A stretch of 64,000 nucleotides of DNA from Aliivibrio fischeri (GTDB lineage: Bacteria; Pseudomonadota; Gammaproteobacteria; Enterobacterales; Vibrionaceae), in contig CP160630.1 in assembly GCA_038993745.2 (NCBI GenBank), forward strand, positions 310,001 through 374,000, read 5' to 3'. A program made the position numbers and the translations under genes. Shown here piece by piece: positions 17,174 to 62,917 of the stretch; the first letter of the stretch is position 1, and each line of letters opens with the position of its first letter. The notes below the pieces were generated by a model. It was given only the letters and a program-made list of their open reading frames with translations, was not told the origin of the DNA and did no database searches.

Positions 17174-17189
17174 ACACCACATCTTGTGT
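17174..17189 (+). promoter_or_regulatory. possible NrdR box
   Basis: The 16-mer ACACCACATCTTGTGT is an imperfect palindrome matching 13 of 16 positions of the NrdR box as I recall it (acaCwAtATaTwgtgt), 42 bases before the nrdD start. NrdR boxes usually occur in pairs; I do not see a convincing second copy, so this is tentative. Confidence 0.4.
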
Positions 17190-17231
17190 TGCCTAGTTCA
17201 ACACCCCCACTATTTAGTATTTGGAGTCACT

Positions 17232-19351
17232 GTGAATATAACTGTAATCAAGCGAGATGGAAGTCGCGCAGCATATAAAAGTTCTCGTATAATTGACGCT
17301 GTAAAAGGTGCTTCAGAGCAGGTGACTCCTGAGATAGAGAGTTACGCTAAATTAGTTGCTCATGCTGTTGAGATTGCATTACAGGGACAACAAGAAGTGG
17401 GCATTCGCCAGATCCAAGAACTGGTTGAAAACGAATTAATGCAAGGACCACATAAAGTACTTGCTCGTGCTTATATTGAATATCGCCATGATAGAGATAT
17501 TGCTCGTGAAAAAATCAGCGTACTAAATAAGGAAATTAGTGGCCTGATTGAACAAAGCAATGCTGAGCTACTGAATGAAAACGCGAATAAAGACGGTAAA
17601 GTGATTCCAACTCAACGTGATTTATTAGCGGGTATTGTGGCTAAGCACTACGCAACTCGTCATATTTTACCTCGTGATATTGTACAAGCGCACGAACGTG
17701 GTGAAATTCATTACCACGATTTAGATTACGCACCATTTTTCCCAATGTTTAACTGTATGCTGATTGATTTAAAAGGCATGTTAACGGGTGGCTTTAAAAT
17801 GGGTAATGCGGAAATTGATACACCAAAATCAATTGCAACCGCAACTGCTGTAACGGCACAAATTATTGCACAAGTAGCAAGTCATATTTATGGCGGAACT
17901 ACGATCAACCGTATTGATGAAATTTTAGCGCCTTACGTAACTGTGAGTTATGAAAAAGCGTTAAAGCTTGCTGAAAAGTGGGGCATTCCTGATGCTGAAG
18001 CTTTTGCTCAAGCTCAAACAGAAAAAGAGTGTTATGACGCATTCCAATCGCTTGAATACGAAGTAAACACATTACATACAGCAAATGGACAAACACCATT
18101 TGTAACATTTGGCTTTGGTTTAGGTACGAGCTGGGAATCTAAACTGATCCAGCGCTCTATTTTAGAAAACCGTATTGCTGGCCTAGGTAAAAACCGTAAA
18201 ACAGCGGTATTCCCTAAATTAGTATTTGCGATTCGTGATGGACTAAACCATAAAAAGCAGATCCAAACTACGATATTAAACAATTAGCATTAGAATGTGC
18301 GTCAAAACGCATGTACCCAGATATCCTTAACTATGACAAAGTAGTTGAAGTGACGGGTTCATTTAAAACGCCAATGGGTTGTCGTAGCTTCCTAGATTTA
18401 TATGAAGAGAACGGTGAGCAAATTCACGATGGTCGTAATAACCTAGGTGTTGTTAGCTTAAACCTACCTCGCGTTGCGATTGAAGCAAAAGGTGATGTAG
18501 ATACATTCTATAAACTGCTTGATGAGCGTTTAGTGCTATGTCGTCGTGCGCTAGAATCACGTATTTCTCGTTTAGAAGGTGTTAAAGCTCGTGTTGCTCC
18601 AATCCTTTATATGGAAGGGGCGTGTGGTGTTCGTCTAAAACCAGATGATGACATCATTAATATCTTTAAAAATGGTCGAGCATCTGTATCGCTTGGTTAC
18701 ATTGGCGTGCATGAAACAATTGAAGCACTATTTGGTAGTGATGATCATCTATATGACAATGCAGAGCTTCAAGTTAAAGCATTAGAGATTATTCAGTACC
18801 TAAAAGATGCAGTTCAAGTATGGACAAAAGAAACTGGCTTTGGCTTTAGCTTGTATGGTACTCCAAGTGAAAACTTATGTTCTCGTTTCTGTAAGCTTGA
18901 TAACACACAATTTGGTGTGATTGATAAAGTGACAGATAAAGGCTACTACACAAACAGTTTCCACTTAGATGTACAGAAGAAAGTGAATCCTTACGATAAG
19001 ATTGACTTTGAAATGCCATACCCAGAAATCTCAAGTGGTGGCTTCATTTGTTATGGTGAATTCCCTAACATGCAACGTAACATTGAAGCATTAGAAAACG
19101 TATGGGATTACAGCTATACGCGTGTTCCTTATTACGGCACAAATACACCGATCGATGAGTGCTACGAATGTGGTTATAACGGTGAATTTGAATGTACAAG
19201 TAAAGGCTTCACTTGTCCTAAATGTGGCAATCATGATTCAACGAAAGTATCAGTAACACGTCGTGTGTGTGGTTATTTAGGTAGCCCTGATGCACGTCCA
19301 TTTAACTTCGGTAAACAAGAAGAAGTTCAACGTCGAGTGAAACATTTATAA
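17232..19351 (+). pseudogene. nrdD: anaerobic ribonucleoside-triphosphate reductase, frameshifted
   Basis: Glycyl-radical class III ribonucleotide reductase, which makes dNTPs without oxygen; about 706 residues when restored. The N-terminal ATP-cone (ITVIKRDGSRAAYKSSRIID) is followed by the large barrel domain, the zinc site CYECGYNG...CPKCG and the glycyl radical motif RRVCGYLGSPDARPFNFGKQ at the C-terminus. The frame breaks in the A run 18252-18256. One added A restores HKKADPNYDIKQLALECASK, and both halves are otherwise full length and well conserved. The start is GTG 17232 with GGAG five bases upstream. The FNR site ahead and nrdG behind (1-base overlap) show an anaerobically induced operon. 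Confidence 0.93.
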
Positions 19352-26349: not shown

Positions 26350-27835
26350 ATGCGTAAATATTCTCCCTTGATGGTTCAAGGAACCACATCAGATGCTGGA
26401 AAGACAGTTCTTGTGGCAGGCTTATGCCGATTGCTTGCCAATAAAGGGATCCAAGTTGCCCTTTTAAACCACAGAATATGGCGTTAAATAGCGCAGTGAC
26501 AGAAGATGGTGGAGAGATTGGCCGAGCTCAAGCTCTTCAAGCTGATGCTGCAAGGGTTAAATCGCATGTTCATATGAATCCAATCTTACTCAAACCAAAT
26601 ACAGATATTGGCGCTCAAGTTATTGTCCAAGGAAAGGCGATTGAAACCATGGATGCATGGGGCTTCCACGATTATAAAAAGTTGGCAATGCCATATGTAT
26701 TAGAATCATTTTCTTATTTATCTAATAACTATGAATGCGTAGTTATTGAAGGGGCAGGGAGCCCTGCTGAGATAAATTTACGTGAAAATGATATAGCGAA
26801 TATGGGGTTTGCGGAGGCGGCAGACGTTCCTGTCATTATTGTTGCTGATATTGATCGTGGTGGGGTATTTGCCCATCTTTATGGCACATTGGCTTTATTG
26901 TCTGAATCAGAGCAAGCTCGAGTAAAAGGTTTCGTTATTAACCGTTTTCGTGGGATATTTCACTTCTTGTTCCTGGGCTTGAATGGCTAGAAGAAAAAAC
27001 GGGTAAGCCTGTATTGGGGGTCATTCCTTATTTGCATGGTTTAAATTTAGAAGCTGAAGATGCGATAAAAAGTGAGCAATTGGATAAAGGTAAATTTATC
27101 GTAAAAGTGCCAGTGGTAACTCGTATTAGTAACCATACGGATTTTGATCCATTGCGTTTGCATCCAGAGATTGATTTGCAATTTATCGGGAAAGGCGATT
27201 CTTTATCTGGCGCTGATTTTATTATTTTACCAGGAAGCAAATCGGTCCAGGTGGATTTAGAATACATAAAATCCCAAGGTTGGGATAAAGATATTGAGCG
27301 CCATTTACGATATGGCGGAAAAGTAATGGGAATTTGTGGCGGTTATCAAATGCTTGGTGAGCATCTTGCCGACCCTCTTGGTATTGAAGGTGTCCCGTGT
27401 CGTGTTAAAGGATTGGGGTATTTATCAATTTCAACAGAATTACAAAAACAGAAGCAACTGACGTTAGTGGAAGGCACACTAGCACTGCCTAATCAAAATG
27501 CGGTCAAAGTAAAAGGGTATGAGATACATGCTGGTGTAAGCACTAAGTTAGGAAAAGAGCACATACCAATCAGTATTCATACAAAAGATGCGATGAGATA
27601 TGATGGTACTATTAACGATGAAAATTCTATTTTTGGTACGTACTTACATGGCGTTTTTGATGAACCAGAAGCATTTGAAGTGATTTTAACGTGGGCTGGA
27701 TTAGAAAAATGCCAAGCAATTAATATGCACGATATCCAAGAAGAGGCCATTGAGCGCATTGCAAAATCAATGGAAGAAAGTTTAGATTTATCATTAATTT
27801 GGCCTGATGTTTTTGAAAAGAATAAAGCTTATTAA
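26350..27835 (+). pseudogene. cobQ: cobyric acid synthase, two frameshifts
   Basis: Adenosylcobyric acid synthase (CobQ/CbiP, about 495 residues restored), which amidates four carboxylates of the corrin ring using glutamine and ATP. The N-terminal nucleotide site is [20 protein letters not shown]. The middle region has [20 protein letters not shown] and [19 protein letters not shown]. The C-terminal glutaminase domain has [13 protein letters not shown] with the nucleophilic Cys and [11 protein letters not shown] with the His. Frame breaks lie at 26462-26465 (T run, restoring [12 protein letters not shown]) and 26952-26954 (G run, restoring [14 protein letters not shown]). No other cobalamin gene is in the window, so it probably serves salvage or completion of the ring. 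modA follows 11 bases later. Confidence 0.92.
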
Positions 27836-36696: not shown

Positions 36697-38681
36697 ATGT
36701 CACACAAATTATTAACTAATCTAAAAACAAAATATCAAATATTAGTCCTGTATTAGCAACCATTATAGTAATGGTGGTAGCGATTTATCTGGTTAACTCT
36801 AAATTAGAGTCAACAAACAGAAATGTTCAGATTTCTGATCATCGTAGCCTCCAATTGAGCAATGTTTCAATTGCAGAATCACGTCTTCTTTTCTTACGAT
36901 TAAGCGTATCTTCAGGCTTCACTAATTATGAAGTCTTAAAATCAATTGATTTTGATGGAATTACCGCTGAACTTAGCGCCAATTTTAAAAGTATGGTAGA
37001 AGAACAGCGTAAACTACAAGAAATGAAAGCTGCGGTTAAAACACCTGAACAACTTCAAACTGAAGTTAACGTATTGATTTCTCAGCTTAACAGTTATAAA
37101 AAATATGCTGAAAACATTTCTAAATCTAATGATGCGAAAATAGAGGAATGGGGTAATTCACTGTATTTAACAACGCCTATTCAACAAGCAAGTGAATTAA
37201 TATTTACAGCCTCTCAAAGTGAAGAATCAAAGCAGTATTGGAGCAAGGTAGTTCCTGAGGTTTATAGTCGAGCTGCAAAAATTGAAATTCAAATGACGTC
37301 TTTATTTAATGATGATTTATACACATCAGTAAGTAAGACACCAAGAATTGAACTTGTTGAAAAGGATTTTGACGCATTAGCTAAATTAATTGCACCACTA
37401 GAAAATAAAAAAGCAAAAGAGATTCTGGTTTCAGCATTTAAGGTTCAATCAGAATTAAATATGTCTTTATGGAATGCAACGGCTGATATTAATAAAAATA
37501 AGAAAGCATTGACCGAACTTGGTAGTCTTATTTACCAAGAATTAAATGATGAGAAAAATCGTTTAACTGAAATGAATGGAAAAATTTCAGATCATAATAT
37601 GCAATTAATAGCAGAAAGTCAGAATCTATTATTAATGGCAATTACGATTACGGTTATTATTTCTTTGATTATCGGAATATTTATTGCTCAAATAGTAACA
37701 AGACCGATTTTAATTCTACAGAAACAAATGTCTGATATATCAGAAGGTCGCTTAGATTCATTAAATGAACAATCAAGCGATAATGAGATTGGTGAGTTAT
37801 GTAAAAATACAGATGGCACTGTCATTCGTTTGCAAGAAATGATTAGTAACTTACGAAATGTCGGAGAGGAAGTTTCTTCTTCATCAACAGAACTTGCAGC
37901 AATCATGGTGCAAAGTGAAGCTAATGCCTCTGATCAAAAATCGCAGGTTGATCTGATCGCAACAGCAATTACGCAATTGGCAGCATCAGCAAATCAAGTT
38001 GATGAGTCAGCTAACCAAGCTGATGCAAAAGCAAAAGAAGTGCTGAACATGAGCCGTGATGGTGCGCGTTCTGCTTCTGAAGGCGTAAAATTAAGTCAAG
38101 ACTTAGCATCTCAAATGGATGCAACCTCTGGTGAGGTAATGATACTTAAAGATCAAACTGACCGTATTAGCGAAGTTATTACTGTTATTGATTCAATCTC
38201 TGAGCAAACGAACTTACTTGCGTTGAATGCGGCGATAGAGGCGGCACGAGCAGGAGAAAGTGGTCGTGGATTCGCAGTGGTTGCAGATGAAGTTCGTGTA
38301 TTAGCGGCAAAGACACAACAATCAACTCAGAACATTCAAAATATCATTAATGAGCTACAACAGAAATCATTGAATGTTGTTGAATCGGTAAATCAATCAA
38401 TAGATATGATCCATCAAACGGCTCAAATGAGCATTGATACAAACAATCAATTGCTTAATATTTCAGAGTCAATTGAACTCATTTCTGTAACGAATTCTGA
38501 GATGGCAACAGCGGCGAATGAACAAAACCGTGCAATTGAATCGATTAGTGAAAATGTAAATATGATCACTGAAACCATCAGTCAAAACGTTGAAGGGATC
38601 AAAGAGTCAACTCAAGCAAGCCAACACTTGTCAGAGTTATCAGAGAATCAAAGAGAACAACTATTGTTCTTCAAATTATAA
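36697..38681 (+). pseudogene. methyl-accepting chemotaxis protein, frameshift in first membrane segment
   Basis: Chemoreceptor of about 661 residues restored. The first membrane segment is interrupted by the break near CC 36747-36748; one added base gives [20 protein letters not shown]. The periplasmic domain (about residues 40-285) is long and all-helical, of the HBM/four-helix-bundle type. A second membrane segment ([20 protein letters not shown]), HAMP linker and signalling domain follow, with the hairpin tip [20 protein letters not shown] and [20 protein letters not shown]. It lies 190 bases behind torA's terminator, which suggests a link to TMAO respiration. It resembles the receptor at 41038 in its signalling half. 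The last residues are EQLLFFKL. Confidence 0.9.
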
Positions 38682-38689
38682 CCAAAACC

Positions 38690-38715
38690 GAGCAGGCAGC
38701 TAAGGTTGTCTGCTC
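38690..38715 (+). repeat. hairpin between chemoreceptor and micro-ORF
   Basis: GAGCAG and CTGCTC enclose a partly paired loop (CA/TTG), nine bases after the chemoreceptor stop codon. There is no T run, so it is at best a partial terminator or attenuator before the small gene that follows. Confidence 0.4.
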
Positions 38716-38749: not shown

Positions 38750-38866
38750 ATGCATAATATAAACAACGATTATATTACGACTGTTAGCAAAGAATCATTG
38801 CTGGCTTTAGGACTTACAGACGAAGAAATCGAATATATATTAACTATATTTGAACTTGAACTGTAA
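38750..38866 (+). CDS. 38-residue micro-ORF downstream of chemoreceptor
   Basis: Possible small protein of 38 residues, acidic, without signal peptide. It contains LALGLTDEEIEYILTIFELE. TTTGGAATT upstream of the ATG is a moderate ribosome site. Its core 'GLTdEE...(y/f)......F' matches the 48-residue ORF that follows the second chemoreceptor (43007-43153), including a shared 'KE' just before. Two such ORFs in the same relative position make coding more credible than for a lone short frame. Function unknown; a contact with the receptor array is only a guess. Confidence 0.5.
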   Translation: MHNINNDYITTVSKESLLALGLTDEEIEYILTIFELEL

Positions 38867-39081
38867 TAATTAGCGTTAAATTTGATGGGGTAAGGCTACC
38901 TAAAAAAGTAAAATAACCACTCTCTATTGTTGATGTAATTCATATATTTAATACTAATAATCAGTAAGACTTTTCACTTTCATTTGTTCTTGTTGATTGT
39001 ATTCTTAATAGTAGTATTCTATGTAAATTACAGAATTATCTGATTTTAGTTAATGCAGCAGTCAACACTAGGAAGTGAATG

Positions 39082-40818
39082 ATGAACCCACTATTTTTCT
39101 TATGTGGACAAGAAAGTATCCCGGTACAAACCGATTTAATCTATGAATTCCAAAATGATCAAATATCGATGCATTTTTCAGGTATTCATAATCTTCCAAT
39201 TAATGATCATTACCTTATTCTGCAATTTCCAACCCAATTAGAGCATGACGCAAAAATTTTGGGGGATGGTTTTCAAATGCTTGCTCAGACAGGCGGAAAA
39301 GTTGACTCACCACAAGAGATCGGCCGCTGTCCTGATAATAGTCCTAGTTATCGAATTTATTCAGAGCACGCAAAAAAAAGATTTTATAATTATTTAGTGA
39401 TTGAACAATCAGACGGATTTACTCTCTTTGGTTTTACTTCTTGTTATCGATTTGCAGGTTATTTCGAGATACATGAATATCAAGGTTCAATGAATGTAAT
39501 GGCATTTCTTGATGGTGAGTTTACTCATCCACAAGATTGGGCTAGTAATCGAATGGAGTCATTAACGGTTATTAAGGCTGAGTCTTTAGCTGAGTTATAT
39601 GAGCTTTATGCAGCCAAAGTACAACAGCAGCACCCAATTCGACCAGGCGTAAAACAAGACGCTCCAATTGGTTGGTGCTCATGGTATGCCTACTATGCAG
39701 ACGTTACAGAGAAAAACGTTTTAGATAATGTTGAGGTCATGTGCCAAAAAGACTCTGAATTTGAGTGGGTGCTTCTTGACGACGGATATCAAGCTTTCAT
39801 GGGAGACTGGTTAACACCTTCAGATAAATTCCCTAATGGTATAAAAGCACTATTACAAAATATAAAAGCAAAAGGAAAGAAACCGGCTATTTGGATAGCT
39901 CCATTTATTGCACAACCTGAATCAGATATTTTTAAAAATCACCCAGATTGGTTTGTTCATCACGAGAATGGTGAATTATTAAAAGCAGAAGATATTACTT
40001 ATGGTGGCTGGCGTTGTACGCCTTGGTATATCCTTGATACTTCAAAACAAGAAGTTCAAATCCATTTAACAGAAGTTATCCACACCATGAGGGAAGAGTG
40101 GGGAGTAGAGCTGTTTAAACTGGATGCTAATTATTGGGGTACGCTTAAAGGCAAGCGAACACAATCTGGGATCACGGGTATTGAGGCTTATCGATTAGGT
40201 ATGCAAGCTATTACCAATGGGGCTGGTGATGCGTTAATTCTTGGCTGTAATGCGCCAATGTGGCCATCATTGGGTTTAGTTGACGCAATGCGAGTATCTG
40301 ATGATGTTGAACGTAATCCTCAACGTTTTGAACAGATAGCAAAAGAGACATTTTACCGTAGCTGGCAGCACCGTAAATTATGGCAAATTGATCCTGATTG
40401 CGTCACGTTGATCTCATTGTCTAATCAAGGGACTGAACGAAAATATTATGAATTTCATCGAAATGTGATTTTAGCTTCTGGTGGACTTGCATTGTCGGGT
40501 GATCCGTTACCAGATTTGAATAAGTTCGCAAAGAAAACATGGAAGAATATTTTGTCTCGTCTTCGTTTAACTCAAGAGGCGGCTCAGTTTACTTCATTGA
40601 GTAATAAACATTGCACATTAACACTCAATCATCAGCATGAACTGCATTGTTTATTTAATTATGACGATGAAGCAATGGAGCACACCCTTGTTGCTGATCA
40701 GCCATCTATTTGGCGAGATTTCTGGACGGGGGAGCAGCTAAATGAAGAACCAACACAGATGTTAATTTTAACTTTAGATAGCGGATTGAACAGTAAAGCT
40801 ATTTTAGTTTCAAATTAA
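39082..40818 (+). CDS. GH36-type alpha-galactosidase
   Basis: Cytoplasmic glycoside hydrolase of 578 residues without signal peptide. The barrel motifs are GWCSWYAYYADVT, FEWVLLDDGYQAFMGDW and KPAIWIAPFIAQPESDIF. The catalytic nucleophile is in ELFKLDANYWG and the acid/base Asp in AMRVSDDVERN, the D/D pair of GH36/clan GH-D. It should release alpha-linked galactose from melibiose- or raffinose-like sugars. ATG 39082 has AGGAAG six bases upstream; 39079 adds one Met. No sugar transporter or galactose gene is adjacent; it lies between two chemoreceptor genes and has its own terminator. Confidence 0.87.
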   Translation: MNPLFFLCGQESIPVQTDLIYEFQNDQISMHFSGIHNLPINDHYLILQFPTQLEHDAKILGDGFQMLAQTGGKVDSPQEIGRCPDNSPSYRIYSEHAKKRFYNYLVIEQSDGFTLFGFTSCYRFAGYFEIHEYQGSMNVMAFLDGEFTHPQDWASNRMESLTVIKAESLAELYELYAAKVQQQHPIRPGVKQDAPIGWCSWYAYYADVTEKNVLDNVEVMCQKDSEFEWVLLDDGYQAFMGDWLTPSDKFPNGIKALLQNIKAKGKKPAIWIAPFIAQPESDIFKNHPDWFVHHENGELLKAEDITYGGWRCTPWYILDTSKQEVQIHLTEVIHTMREEWGVELFKLDANYWGTLKGKRTQSGITGIEAYRLGMQAITNGAGDALILGCNAPMWPSLGLVDAMRVSDDVERNPQRFEQIAKETFYRSWQHRKLWQIDPDCVTLISLSNQGTERKYYEFHRNVILASGGLALSGDPLPDLNKFAKKTWKNILSRLRLTQEAAQFTSLSNKHCTLTLNHQHELHCLFNYDDEAMEHTLVADQPSIWRDFWTGEQLNEEPTQMLILTLDSGLNSKAILVSN

Positions 40819-40844
40819 AATCTCAGTTAAAAATCAGAAATAAG

Positions 40845-40881
40845 GCAGGTGTAATGTTTAAATTTACACTTGTCTTTTTTT
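40845..40881 (+). terminator. Rho-independent terminator
   Basis: CAGGTGTAA pairs with TTACACTTG (with G-T pairs) and is followed by a run of T residues, after the alpha-galactosidase gene. Confidence 0.8.
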
Positions 40882-41037
40882 ATGCCTAAAAACTTCTAAA
40901 ATATACAAGAATAACTAGATTTAACTATTTGATTTAAATTAATTAACTACTTTTTTCTTCGTTTTTGTTCATTTGAAGACGACTATTGGTATCCATATAA
41001 TCCGATTCCCATTTTAAATCATAAATAGAGTTATTAT

Positions 41038-43017
41038 ATGAATGCTATCAATCGTTTCTTACTGAATATCCCTCTACGATATCAAATACTCTTTCCTCCG
41101 CTTTTCGCTATTATGGTTATGATTATCTCTATGTTGATCATTTCATCTGCGATGAACCAATCGGTTAAGAACTCGGAAGTATTAAATGTTCGCTTGCAAG
41201 AAATGACGCATTTATCTAGTAGTGAAACAAAAATTTTGCAGATATTTAGTGAAATTAATCGTTCTCTATCAAATCCCGAAGCCTTAGAAAATGTAGATGA
41301 TTATGTTTTTGAACAAATTGAATTGATTAATTATGATTTCAATTATATTGAAGAAGAGCACAACAAGATAAAAGGTCAAAAGCATACAACACAGCAATTG
41401 ATCATAGATTTAAACAAAGTTTCTGTTTTATTAGAAAACATGAAAGACATTATTGAATCGAATCAAACCATTTCAAAAAAGATGCAAACGGAATGGGCTA
41501 AGTTACCTTATTTAAGTGACTCGATAGAGCTTTTAAGTAAAGAAGTTCAGGATAATGAGGAACACCATTGGATCGAAATGGAAGAGGCACTGTACTCTTC
41601 ATCTGAGATATTACAAATAAAGTTAAATTCGCTATATAACTTTAATATAGATAAGGAAGATTTTGAGATTATTGATGCTGAATTTATAAAAATAAACCAA
41701 GTAATTGATGATATTCATGAAAGTGATGCAAAAAGAAAAATACAACTAAATATTAGTAATTTACAATCAATTTATCATCAATTTTCTGAGTTAATTACTA
41801 ATCTAAATAACAATAAATCGGATCTATTCAAAATTGAAAATAGCATTAATTACTTGATAAAAAATCAAAGTTCAAGAATTAATGAAATTAGTAGTACTTT
41901 ATCAAAAGATAGTATTGAGCTTGTTTTTTCTAGCAAGCAAATGATTATTATTTCTATGATTTGCTTTACGTTATTAACCATGCTGATCACATGGATTACG
42001 ATTCGAACGATTGTGATGCCTATAAGGATTTTGAAGGATCAGATAGAGTTTCTTTCCGAAGGAAAACTGAATGAGTTGAATAACTTAATTGGCAGCAATG
42101 AAGTCGCCGAACTTTGTCAAAATACAGATAAAACGGCACATCATTTACATCAGATAGTGAATGCTCTACGTGATATCGCCTCAGAGGTGTCTACGTCCTC
42201 ATTAAGCCTTAATGTGTTAATGAATACGAATGAAAAAAATATATTAGAAGAGAAATCTCAGATTGAATTAATCGCAGCGGCTGTTACTGAATTATCGGCA
42301 GCAGCAACTCAAGTTGATCACGTTGCTATGAATGCAGATGAAAGAGCAAAAGAGGCATTGAACTTGAGCCGTTCTGGATCAGATACGGCTTCAGTAAGCA
42401 GTCAGTTAAGCCAAGAACTGGTGAAACAAATGGGATTAACGGCTAAAGAAGTTGAGTCATTAAAGGTTCAATCAGAGCAAATTAGTGAGGTTATTACGGT
42501 CATAGACTCAATATCAGACCAAACTAATTTATTAGCATTAAATGCAGCGATCGAAGCGGCAAGAGCAGGTGAGAGTGGGCGAGGCTTTGCTGTTGTTGCT
42601 GATGAAGTTAGGATGCTTGCTGCAAAAACGCAACAATCAACATTAACCATTCAAGAGGTCATCGATCGTTTGCAAAGTACATCTAATGATGTGGTTGAAT
42701 CTGTTTCGAAATCAATCAAGATAATTAATGAAACTCAAGAAATGACAGAGAAAACAAATTCACAATTACTTGATATATCGAAAGAAATAGAAGAAATAAC
42801 TTGTTCAAATACAGAAGTTGCGACCGCTGCAAATGAGCAAAATCAGGCCATTTTATCTATAAGTGAAAGCATTAATTTAATGACGGAGAATATTAATAAA
42901 AATATTGATGAAATGAATAAAATCAGCTCTAACGCCGATAAATTATCCGAGCTATCGACATCACAAGTAGAGCAACTTAAATTCTTCACTTTAATAGATA
43001 AAGATCATGAAAAGTAA
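41038..43017 (+). CDS. methyl-accepting chemotaxis protein
   Basis: Intact chemoreceptor of 659 residues. Membrane segment 1 is about residues 15-38 ([20 protein letters not shown]) and a long helical periplasmic domain follows (about 40-300). Segment 2 is [20 protein letters not shown], followed by HAMP and the signalling domain with [20 protein letters not shown] and [20 protein letters not shown]. The cytoplasmic half is very close to that of the receptor at 36697, while the sensor parts diverge, so different ligands are likely. The C-terminus ([15 protein letters not shown]) overlaps the next small ORF by 11 bases. Confidence 0.95.
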
Positions 43018-43153
43018 TACAAAAAAAACAGGCTATCCTCAGAAAGAAGCGTCTATTTCTAATGGTTTAACTGCGGAAGAGAGGGATTTCCTTTATAAAG
43101 TGTTTTGTTTTCCATTTAATCAAACGTCAAAAAAAGAAGATACAGAGAAGTAA
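43007..43153 (+). CDS. 48-residue micro-ORF overlapping chemoreceptor end
   Basis: Small hydrophilic ORF whose ATG lies inside the last codons of the chemoreceptor gene (11-base overlap), consistent with translational coupling. It contains [20 protein letters not shown] and a Lys/Glu-rich end. The core 'GLTxEE...(f/y)......F' and preceding 'KE' match the 38-residue ORF behind the other receptor. No known family is recognised. A hairpin that may act as terminator follows within 15 bases, so the small ORF would be the last gene of the receptor transcript. Confidence 0.55.
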
Positions 43154-43163
43154 ATAAACTAAA

Positions 43164-43200
43164 TGCCATAGCAGCAAAGGTATGCTGCTATGGTGTGCAT
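43164..43200. terminator. hairpin between convergent genes
   Basis: A perfect 10-bp stem, CCATAGCAGC with GCTGCTATGG, around an 8-nt loop, between the micro-ORF and the convergent ToxR-like gene. T runs are short, so termination is probable rather than certain. Confidence 0.55.
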
Positions 43201-43201
43201 T

Positions 43202-44329
43202 TTAATAAAACTCTTTAACAATAAATGAAATATCTTGTTGTTCACTATAAGTAAGGCTGAAGCCTTTATCTATAATATAAAAGTGCAGGTAGTTATACTT
43301 ATTGTCATTTTTAAATGTTTTTGGGAACATTTTTAGTTTCGTTTGATCTTCAATATGCCCATGTTGAATTAAGCTACTTTGCTCATCTTCATTAATAACA
43401 TTTGAAATTAACGTATCTTTATCAAATTGTGCTTTAAAATCACTAAAATAAGTATATTTACCGTTATATCCAGATTCTGAGATGTTAATTGACATATCTA
43501 AGTCATAGCTTTTATCTTCTTGAAGATTAAAGTAGAAATTATACGTCGCAAATGCAATGTAATCTTTATCATCATTTGATGTAAATTGAACATTAGTATG
43601 AAGGTTAAAATTACCATCCTGATCGTTGTCTTTTTGAATGATAGGATGATTATCTTGTTCTAAACCACTAGTAAGGTTTTGATTTATGAGAGTCTCAATA
43701 TTATCTTCATTTGTTTCAAGAAAAATAATTTTATTCGTAACATCATTACATTTATGTTCGATAAATAAACACTGAGATAAAGATAATTTATCTTCGCCAA
43801 GATGCAAAAAGTATAAGTAATTAGGTTGAATATTTAACTTTGTTATATCAATAGCTTTAGAAGTGGATAACATATATATGTTATCTGATACTTTATTAAG
43901 GTTTTGCGTTATTGAGCTAGGTGCAACTTGTTTGAAAATAGGGAATATGAAAAAAAGAGAAACAAGAATGAGCACAGAGAAGAAGAGAAAATAGAACTTT
44001 TTAATTGGTTTTGAGAGTAGGCGATCTCCTGATTTATAACCTTTATTTTTTATAGTATCGATGATTGAGATGTTATGGGTTAAGAATTTTTTCCTTAATA
44101 AGGATATTGTCTGGGTTACGACACTATTTGCAACTGAACCATCTTCCCAACATTGTGTATATATTTCATCTTTTGTATAAATTTTATTCGGATTACTATA
44201 AAGAAGAAACAATAAATTAGCCTCATTAAGGCTTATTTTTATTTCTTCTTTAGTACGATTGATTACAACAGTTAAACTGCTGTAATCAATTGTGAGATTT
44301 TGGGTTTTAACTATCTCTTTTTTATTCAT
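43202..44329 (-). CDS. ToxR/CadC-like transmembrane transcriptional regulator
   Basis: A 375-residue protein with an N-terminal OmpR-type winged helix (about residues 10-105; NEANLLFLLYSNPNKIYTKD, then NSVVTQTISLLRKKF and IDTIKNKGYK). One membrane segment follows (FYFLFFSVLILVSLFFIFPI, about 112-131), and then a roughly 240-residue periplasmic domain of unknown fold. This is the one-component layout of ToxR/CadC: a periplasmic signal is passed to DNA without phosphorylation. There is no receiver domain. It sits directly downstream of sapF on the same strand, 9 bases after the sap operon's last gene. Confidence 0.85.
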   Translation of the reverse strand: MNKKEIVKTQNLTIDYSSLTVVINRTKEEIKISLNEANLLFLLYSNPNKIYTKDEIYTQCWEDGSVANSVVTQTISLLRKKFLTHNISIIDTIKNKGYKSGDRLLSKPIKKFYFLFFSVLILVSLFFIFPIFKQVAPSSITQNLNKVSDNIYMLSTSKAIDITKLNIQPNYLYFLHLGEDKLSLSQCLFIEHKCNDVTNKIIFLETNEDNIETLINQNLTSGLEQDNHPIIQKDNDQDGNFNLHTNVQFTSNDDKDYIAFATYNFYFNLQEDKSYDLDMSINISESGYNGKYTYFSDFKAQFDKDTLISNVINEDEQSSLIQHGHIEDQTKLKMFPKTFKNDNKYNYLHFYIIDKGFSLTYSEQQDISFIVKEFY

Positions 44330-61577: not shown

Positions 61578-62917
61578 TTATTGATTCGAGCTGCCTTTTG
61601 CGTAATTAAGTGCATGAATGACTTCATCGCCATCTAATAAAACTGGAAGAGTTAGACCTTGTGGAGTATTAGGCCCATACACAACGGTCAGAGGAACGCC
61701 ATATCGTTGGTGTTTTTTTAAATACTCCGTTATTTTATGGCTTGGATGAGTCCAGTCTCCCTGCATGGTAATTACGTTTTCTTGCTGTAATGCAGGGTAG
61801 ACAGGGTTTTGTAATATCACGCCGATTTTATTGGTTTTACAAGTAATACACCAATCAGCGCTGACATTAACAAAGACGGTTTTTCCTTGTTTCACATAGT
61901 CATCAATAGTACGTTCATCTAATGATTCCCAGTGTAAGTTATCTTCCGTTGGAGTAACCCAATATTTGGTGGTCATGCTGCCAACAATAAGTATTGAACT
62001 GCTTAAAAAAATAATGACAGCAATAATTGTGATTACCGTATTTTTTCCATGTATATGAGCAATTTTATAGAGTAAATAAATACTAAAAAGTAACGCAATA
62101 ATTACGGTTAATAAGACTCCAATGAATGGTGAAAGTAAGCTCAATAACCACAATGTTGAACTCAGCATCATTAAACCAAAGACGATTTTGACTTTGTTCA
62201 TCCATGGGCCTGATTTTGGCATATATGAAATTAAGTGAGGAAAAACAGCAAAGAATAACCAAGGCAAGGCCATGCCCAATCCTAAGAAAGTAAAAATTAA
62301 TAGCATTTCTAATGTGCTAGCACCTAAAGCAAAAGCGATAGCTGTTCCTAAAAATGGGCACTACATGGTGTAGCTAATAGTGTCGCAAACATCCCTTGTA
62401 TAAAATTTCCGAGTGTTGAATTGTCGCCTTTTTGGGCAATAAACGTTGAAAATCGATGCGAAAGTTGTATTTCGAATAATCCTAAAAGGTTAGCTGTAAA
62501 CAGGCCCATTGTGATAGCCATAAAGCCTATAAATAGTGGGTTTTGATATTGGATGCCCCAACCAATCATTCCACCTGTAATTCTTAAAATAAGTACGCTA
62601 AAAGCGAGTAACCAAAATGAAACCAATATTCCTGAGGCAGAAGCTAAAAATTGTAAACGTATAGATTGGCTATTCGTAGAGGATAGAGCGAGCATATTGC
62701 TCAATTTCATACCTAAAACCGGCAGTACACAAGGCATAATATTAAGGATTAAGCCTCCCAATAATGCGATACCAATAATGTTAAATATATTATTTGATTG
62801 TATTTCATCAGTAGGTTGGGCTATCGCAGAAACTGAAAAAAGCGATAGAAAAAAAAGAGTCATTAAAATGATAAATTGACATCGATTGAACGATTTTACT
62901 TTTTGAATGATAAACAT
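61578..62917 (-). pseudogene. short DsbD-like thiol:disulfide transporter, frameshifted
   Basis: About 446 residues restored. The leader is hydrophobic; the DsbD membrane domain has LNIMPCVLPVLGMKLSNM and LATPCSAPFLGTAIAFALG, whose two Cys carry electrons across the membrane. A C-terminal thioredoxin-like domain has the active site VSADWCITCKTNK (CXXC). The frame breaks at GGG 62356-62358 (CCC in the gene), and one added base restores CSAPFLGT. The N-terminal DsbD alpha domain is missing, so the product resembles the short DsbD/ScsB-like proteins of copper- or oxidative-stress loci. A small membrane protein gene lies just upstream. Confidence 0.87.

Follow-up and report, generated by a model that had tools for sequence, protein, structure and literature searches.

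Chemoreceptor-adjacent micro-ORFs of Aliivibrio form a small family of putative receptor-paired microproteins

Within a 64,000-nucleotide stretch of the Aliivibrio fischeri genome (GenBank assembly GCA_038993745.2, contig CP160630.1, positions 310,001 to 374,000; hereafter the window, whose own numbering is used below), two genes for chemoreceptors (methyl-accepting chemotaxis proteins, MCPs), termed MCP1 and MCP2, are each followed by a micro open reading frame (micro-ORF), termed A and B, respectively:

36771–38681, plus strand: chemoreceptor MCP1 (listed open reading frame, ORF), with the Pfam domains MCPsignal (1e-41) and HAMP
38750–38866, plus strand: micro-ORF A, 38 residues, ATG start, behind MCP1; core LTDEEIEYILTIF
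41038–43017, plus strand: chemoreceptor MCP2, with the Pfam domain MCPsignal (3.2e-44)
43007–43153, plus strand: micro-ORF B, 48 residues, ATG start, overlapping the end of MCP2 by 11 nt

Both micro-ORFs exist where a preliminary description of this DNA had placed them, A starting 68 nt past the stop codon of the MCP1 frame 36771–38681. The two receptors share 38% identity along almost their whole length. The gapless alignment of the A and B cores proposed earlier proved correct, with KESLLALGLTDEEIEYILTIF facing a 21-residue counterpart at a score of 21.6 bits, and within the 490 window ORFs of 25–70 residues each of A and B has the other as its best match. None of 5000 shuffles of B and one of 6000 random ORF pairs scored as high. 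Held-out profiles, read against 41,299 unrelated stop-free 21-residue windows of the 64-kb stretch, gave A 33.6 bits when the copies at MCP1 were left out of the training (best unrelated window 10.1) and B 25.8 bits when those at MCP2 were left out (best unrelated window 13.5). By these sequence measures, the similarity between A and B is beyond chance.

We compared 14 Aliivibrio genomes, labelled G000–G013. Orthologues of MCP1 occur in 12 of them, the window genome included, with 77–100% identity; among named genomes the closest match is A. fischeri emors.2.1 (95%), the others being A. sifiae and Aliivibrio sp. EL58. MCP2 has orthologues in six of the 14, again counting its own genome. Behind the orthologous receptor, A is matched by homologues of 95% identity in G002 and G006 and by more distant ones in G001 (47%) and G007 (44%), while B has homologues in G002 (98%) and G006 (94%). 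The relative at MCP2 in G013 and G001 has 52 residues, and a third receptor of G001, MCP3, is followed by one of 39 residues; the micro-ORF is found at 6/6 MCP2 and 1/1 MCP3 loci. At two of the MCP2 loci the receptor is itself damaged. The gene of G006 contains one internal stop, its micro-ORF being open, and the G004 copy follows roughly the last 30 codons of MCP2, the front part of which lies about 310 kb away. A 567-base stretch near both of these MCP2 ends is 99.8% identical, and a rearrangement therefore probably parted the two halves.

A hidden Markov model (HMM) search of 329 Vibrionaceae genomes recovered 12 copies in seven genomes, 11 of them behind an MCP and one behind the MCP stub of G004, whereas in 394 genomes drawn from the order nothing was found beyond the window's own A and B. 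Searches of protein collections returned 26 clusters, and all seven with an organism name were from Aliivibrio. The earlier suggestion to look for GLTxEE micro-ORFs across the Vibrionaceae thus yielded further copies, but all seven genomes belong to the one genus, and in the sequences searched the family is found only in Aliivibrio.

The family extends to further receptors. In the window genome, 39 loci match PF00015, 38 of them above the cut-off, and a profile scan of all 39 gave one further strong frame at 26.5 bits, the next reaching 13.0. At a receptor termed MCP5, the window genome has a member of 54 residues located 76 nt upstream on the same strand; G002 and G006 have members in the same place with gaps of 80 and 79 nt, and in G001 a more distant member precedes, by about 110 nt, a receptor that is 54% identical to MCP5 over 457 residues. 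The count for MCP5 is that of four receptors found together with a member. The MCP5 gene of the window genome (L159 7390–9045, reverse orientation; L145) stops near the signalling tip and runs into genes that by eye resemble phage tail genes, and a prophage or a rearrangement seems to interrupt it.

An HMM extended by three MCP5 members placed 16 of 17 matches at E<=0.01 beside an MCP, the stub included, and genome-wide it identified members directly upstream of a receptor termed MCP4 in G013 (E 0.002) and G003 (E 0.09). A scan of 12,068 small frames of the loci covered showed a member directly upstream of all six MCP4 receptors found (G000, G001, G002, G003, G006, G013). In G013 the micro-ORF overlaps, at its end, a possible ATG of the receptor, and at the other five loci the first possible receptor start lies 14–47 nt and the first ATG 38–71 nt behind it. 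When 11,015 distinct small frames were ranked with a 13-residue profile trained on the MCP1–3 copies, the four MCP5 and two MCP4 copies took ranks 11–16, directly behind the training copies. Next among the MCP4 copies came those of G006 and G002, at ranks 19 and 20 behind two unrelated frames, then that of G001 at rank 30, and that of G000 fell outside the top 30. A profile trained on the MCP4 and MCP5 copies ranked the MCP1–3 copies at 12–16, 18, 24 and 26–28, with unrelated frames between them. At the level of sequence, the MCP5 copies and the MCP4 copies of G003 and G013 are well supported as members; the remaining MCP4 copies are supported by orthology and position, the G000 copy being linked to that of G006 by 34 of 56 residues.

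Behind a sixth receptor, MCP6, whose frame is split in the window genome, a 33-residue ORF with ISREEFNFLQKIF follows after about 320 nt. At 14.6, compared with 16.2 for the best unrelated frame, it does not rise above the background, and we regard it as a candidate only; an identical protein occurs on 16 contigs of the protein collection. Directly behind MCP6, before the candidate, is also an ORF of 71 residues with a Shine-Dalgarno-like site (L187 3443–3664, reverse orientation). Altogether we count 22 copies, with proteins of 34–67 residues (five at MCP1, six at MCP2, one at MCP3, six at MCP4 and four at MCP5), in eight of the 14 genomes, plus this candidate. The preliminary description had both micro-ORFs in the same position relative to their receptors. 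This is correct for A and B, both downstream, as it is at MCP1–3 generally, but it does not extend to the whole family, the members at MCP4 and MCP5 lying upstream on the same strand.

The core consensus of the family is L-[ST]-x-E-E-x-x-[FY]-[IL]-x-x-[VIL]-[FL], with variable ends. A wider form, L-[ST]-x-[EDK]-E-x-x-[FY]-[ILV]-x-x-[VILT]-[FLV], covers 20 of 20 distinct members, and is descriptive, having been derived from these same members. The check for purifying selection (ratio of nonsynonymous to synonymous divergence, dN/dS) proposed earlier yielded a synonymous excess in most of the divergent pairs tested. For the MCP1–3 types, nine of 25 computed pairs were tested and five had p<0.05: A of the window against G001 (p=0.0014) and against G007, B of the window against G002, and the MCP2 type of G001 against G004 and against G013 (dS 0.87, dN 0.14, p=1.1e-5). 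The same held for 12 of 15 MCP4 pairs (for example G001–G000, p=0.0002) and for 3/3 MCP5 pairs, counted with the G001 member left out (G000–G006, p printed as 0.0000). Finite dN/dS values of pairs with appreciable divergence ranged from about 0.1 to 0.7. As judged from these substitutions, the pairs show that selection acts on the protein, while its exact strength is not given by them.

These data bear on the possibility that A and B are chance ORFs in A+T-rich spacers. Short ORFs are indeed common behind the MCP genes of the window genome, as a survey of 37 of the 39 PF00015 loci showed (two without the frame-finding motif were dropped), but the orthologues, the selection and the held-out profile scores contradict this explanation, which we consider highly improbable. 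The earlier proposal of a real microprotein family tied to chemoreceptors is supported by syntenic homologues in other species, by the synonymous excess and by the added receptor types.

The layout of the two loci differs with respect to expression, with two hairpins of interest:

38690–38715, plus strand: hairpin between MCP1 and A, a terminator-like stem with a weak T run
43163–43196, plus strand: terminator-like hairpin shortly after B (terminator scan; fold)

The region 43154–43205 folds at −22.2 kcal/mol (z −4.5). Since the frames of MCP2 and B overlap and a terminator-like hairpin follows B, the two genes probably form one transcription unit. Shine-Dalgarno-like letters were seen by eye ahead of A and of the MCP2-type members of G001, G013 and G004, and by the same inspection none was clear before B or the MCP3 member. 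Between MCP1 and A, the segment 38682–38749 folds at −21.6 kcal/mol (z −4.2, 0/200 shuffles as good); the hairpin at 38690–38715 is absent from the terminator-scan listing, and in G001 another stable hairpin occupies the corresponding part of the spacer. The nearest promoter-like match overlaps the start codon of A, in a region with fewer such matches than its shuffles, and expression of A may rely on read-through or be separate.

B overlaps its receptor, and one MCP4 copy overlaps what may be a receptor start; this would also agree with translated spacers, in which translation in a 3′ untranslated region or a 5′ leader, not the peptide, controls the stability or translation of the receptor mRNA. 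The conserved residues, the synonymous excess in most divergent pairs and the occurrence of members both up- and downstream argue against this, and we hold it to be improbable. A leader peptide or attenuator was considered as well and rejected; it needs a fixed upstream position, and the micro-ORFs lie downstream at MCP1–3 and upstream at MCP4–5.

The start of the MCP1 gene itself is disturbed in this assembly. An ATG at 36697 that corresponds to the start of the orthologues is out of frame with the remainder of the gene (window 36697–36800), owing to a short indel near the first membrane segment, and relatives have intact copies. The window has three other genes that are each divided between frames, namely nrdD, cobQ and one resembling dsbD (17184–19351, 26478–27835 and 61578–62917), which suggests an indel-prone assembly or recent decay and bears on how the break in MCP1 is to be read. 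Upstream of MCP1, at about 36640, is a sigma-28-like site, TAAA-N16-GCCGAAAT, that is also present in G002 and G006, with looser forms in G004 and G005; matched against the sigma-28 consensus, it hints that MCP1 may be under flagellar-regulon control.

For the structure of the products, AlphaFold2 predicted A (12 sequences) with a mean predicted local distance difference test score (pLDDT) of 81.9 and helices at residues 14–19 and 24–33, residues 21–30 reaching a mean of 93; A is thus modelled, fairly confidently, as a helical hairpin. A fold comparison, which covered one PDB chain only, gave no match.

We next considered the history of the receptors. Two trees, both carrying a long-branch warning, place MCP1, MCP2 and MCP3 in one clade (support 98/95 and 97/95) with MCP4 as its sister (97/93 and 99/96). 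The second tree was calculated without the longest outgroup rows (four very long rows), and MCP2 of G006 stands outside both on account of its internal stop. MCP1 of G009, which lacks the micro-ORF, groups with the carriers from the window, G006 and G002 (99/99). In the simplest reading, the ancestor of MCP1–4 already had the microprotein, the gene order changed, and at least two losses occurred behind MCP1, in view of the placement of G009. The MCP signalling domain is common to MCP5 and these receptors, but the sensor region of MCP5, with sub-threshold Cache matches only, differs from that of MCP1–4, and the family hence extends past one receptor clade. A possible second companion of the MCP1–4 clade is a Trans_reg_C-type gene. 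Such a gene (CadC/ToxR-like, window 43202–44329, minus strand) is convergent to MCP2, and opposite-strand frames with similar-looking ends, judged by eye only, adjoin MCP3 and MCP4 (L044, L055–L060).

We interpret A and B as belonging to a small Aliivibrio family of microproteins that evolves fast, is paired with chemoreceptors and would act as a partner of the receptor or of its array, a tentative reading to which we give a probability of roughly 0.4. The family most likely works through a protein that acts in trans, since adjacency to a receptor is kept while the order varies and the residues are under selection. As to its function, an accessory partner of the receptor or array is what we infer as most likely. 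Each microprotein would be made together with its receptor, as suggested by the overlaps of B and of one MCP4 copy and by the close spacing elsewhere, and would form a short helix, or a pair of them, built around the L-[ST]-x-E-E-x-x-[FY]-[IL] core. It may then contact its receptor's cytoplasmic portion, or one of the core components of the array at this receptor, and thereby tune signalling, adaptation or stability, with the variable ends conferring receptor specificity. The roles suggested earlier, an adaptor, a stability factor or a tether, are conjectures.

Several observations weigh against this interpretation. First, the micro-ORF is present at five and absent at seven of the 12 MCP1 orthologues. 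In G009, G010 and G011 a segment with the ORF is missing from a spacer that can otherwise be recognised, and between 60 nt before and 700 nt after the receptor end no relic was found at any of the seven, the best profile scores being −8.2 to −0.2 bits compared with 48.6–63.0 for members. Loss of the ORF beside an intact receptor, named in the preliminary description as evidence against a family, is therefore real at these 7/12 loci, but as a clean absence, not as a decayed ORF. The micro-ORF is dispensable, or accessory, at MCP1, because MCP1 persists without it in several species. Second, scans of receptor loci were what first revealed the MCP5 copies, four of the six at MCP4 and the candidate at MCP6, so their adjacency is no independent evidence. 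Third, no significant synonymous excess was obtained for A between the window and G002 (p=0.21) or between G001 and G007 (p=0.10), for B between the window and G006 (p=0.60), for the MCP2 type between G013 and G004 (p=0.056), or for three of the 15 MCP4 pairs (G013–G000, G003–G000, G006–G002); moreover, the pairs have sequences in common and so lack independence, and in distant pairs the synonymous sites are saturated. Fourth, one point in favour is weak: the closing core residue is Phe in the other MCP1–3 members from genomes and Val in G004, where MCP2 is broken, which fits relaxed constraint but is one case; this position is Leu in four of the six MCP4 members, and P0002 also has Val.

Further points concern mechanism. 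The hairpin between MCP1 and A makes co-expression there uncertain. The AlphaFold2 model of B (nine sequences) is of low confidence, with a mean pLDDT of 66.5 and one helix at residues 23–33, and for seven cores the core helix was not significantly amphipathic, 10–43% of shuffles being as high. Given the different sensor of MCP5, a single receptor site is not obvious.

The patchy occurrence behind MCP1, the rapid divergence and the varying order relative to the receptors would also fit a selfish or mobile micro-gene, or an unrelated regulator, that travels with receptor duplications and does not act on the receptor. Whole-genome searches, in contrast, put the significant copies beside chemoreceptors and on the same strand, 12 of 12 with one stub in the first search and 16 of 17 at E<=0.01 in the extended one. 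By eye, no mobile elements were noticed except the junction repeat of G004 and the phage-like genes behind MCP5, no dedicated search having been made. We consider such an origin doubtful.

A live rival concerns CheY, to which both the N-terminus of FliM and the C-terminus of CheZ bind. The microproteins might be mimics of the FliM N-terminus, or less likely of the CheZ C-terminus, that capture or compete for phosphorylated CheY (CheY-P) near certain receptors. With a profile of the full family (15 cores), the motif LSQDEIDALL from FliM of the window genome was the best FliM window, and over 10 positions 7 of 224 controls scored as high, a suggestive result; over 13 positions, 83 of 224 controls matched its score, and with the MCP1–3 profile the best FliM windows lay elsewhere in the protein, near or below the control median. 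CheZ was negative with both profiles. FliM furthermore has Ala at the [FY] position of the family and lacks the closing F, and its end is too short for a fair test in longer windows. Overall, mimicry of this kind appears unlikely, slightly more so than a mobile origin. It also enters a more specific version of the partner reading, to which we give somewhat less credence than to its general form, namely that helical peptides of 34–67 residues, born in Aliivibrio and spread to at least five receptor types, are dedicated receptor subunits that tune each receptor, perhaps by holding CheY-P in a FliM-like manner.

If the microproteins are receptor partners, the consequences reach beyond this locus. 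According to PMC3948606, V. fischeri has 43 predicted chemoreceptors. Dozens of A. fischeri receptors feed shared signalling, and a paired microprotein would be a simple means of setting gain, adaptation or lifetime for a single receptor. In bacterial chemotaxis this would be the first case of microprotein control specific to one receptor. The role is directly testable in A. fischeri, a species used as a genetic model of how squid are colonised. The family further illustrates how a genus-specific microprotein can duplicate with its receptor and be lost, and how scans of receptor loci reveal members that escape homology searches.

Within the libraries and literature searched the family is new, and the earlier remark that no described family has this pattern stands there. 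A and B fall below every curated cut-off of Pfam and NCBIfam; among 17 members the best E values were 0.0055 in Pfam (S_100, 2/17) and 0.025 in NCBIfam, and for the 12 MCP1–3-type members scanned they were 0.069 in PHROGs and 0.0068 in PADLOC, each for one member. A likeness of the micro-ORFs to receptor tails did not hold.

Three known systems offer comparisons. Chemoreceptors can carry a C-terminal pentapeptide (x-W-x-x-F) that tethers CheR and CheB. It is likewise short and receptor-linked, and recruitment of adaptation enzymes is a conceivable analogy; the tether, however, is part of the receptor, whereas the micro-ORFs are separate ORFs, and by eye no Trp occurs in any listed core and no x-W-x-x-F in 20 members. 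CheY-binding peptides of the FliM and CheZ type have a short acidic helix start, L-[ST]-x-[ED]-E-I, like that of the family, but do not share its conserved [FY]-[IL]-x-x-[VIL]-[FL] half, and CheZ was negative in the profile tests. According to PMC8404706, MgrB is a 47-residue inhibitor of the sensor kinase PhoQ. It is a membrane protein whose transmembrane region contacts PhoQ, whereas the micro-ORFs have no obvious membrane segment by eye; being comparably small and a modulator of a membrane sensor, MgrB serves as the working analogy for the proposed role of the family.

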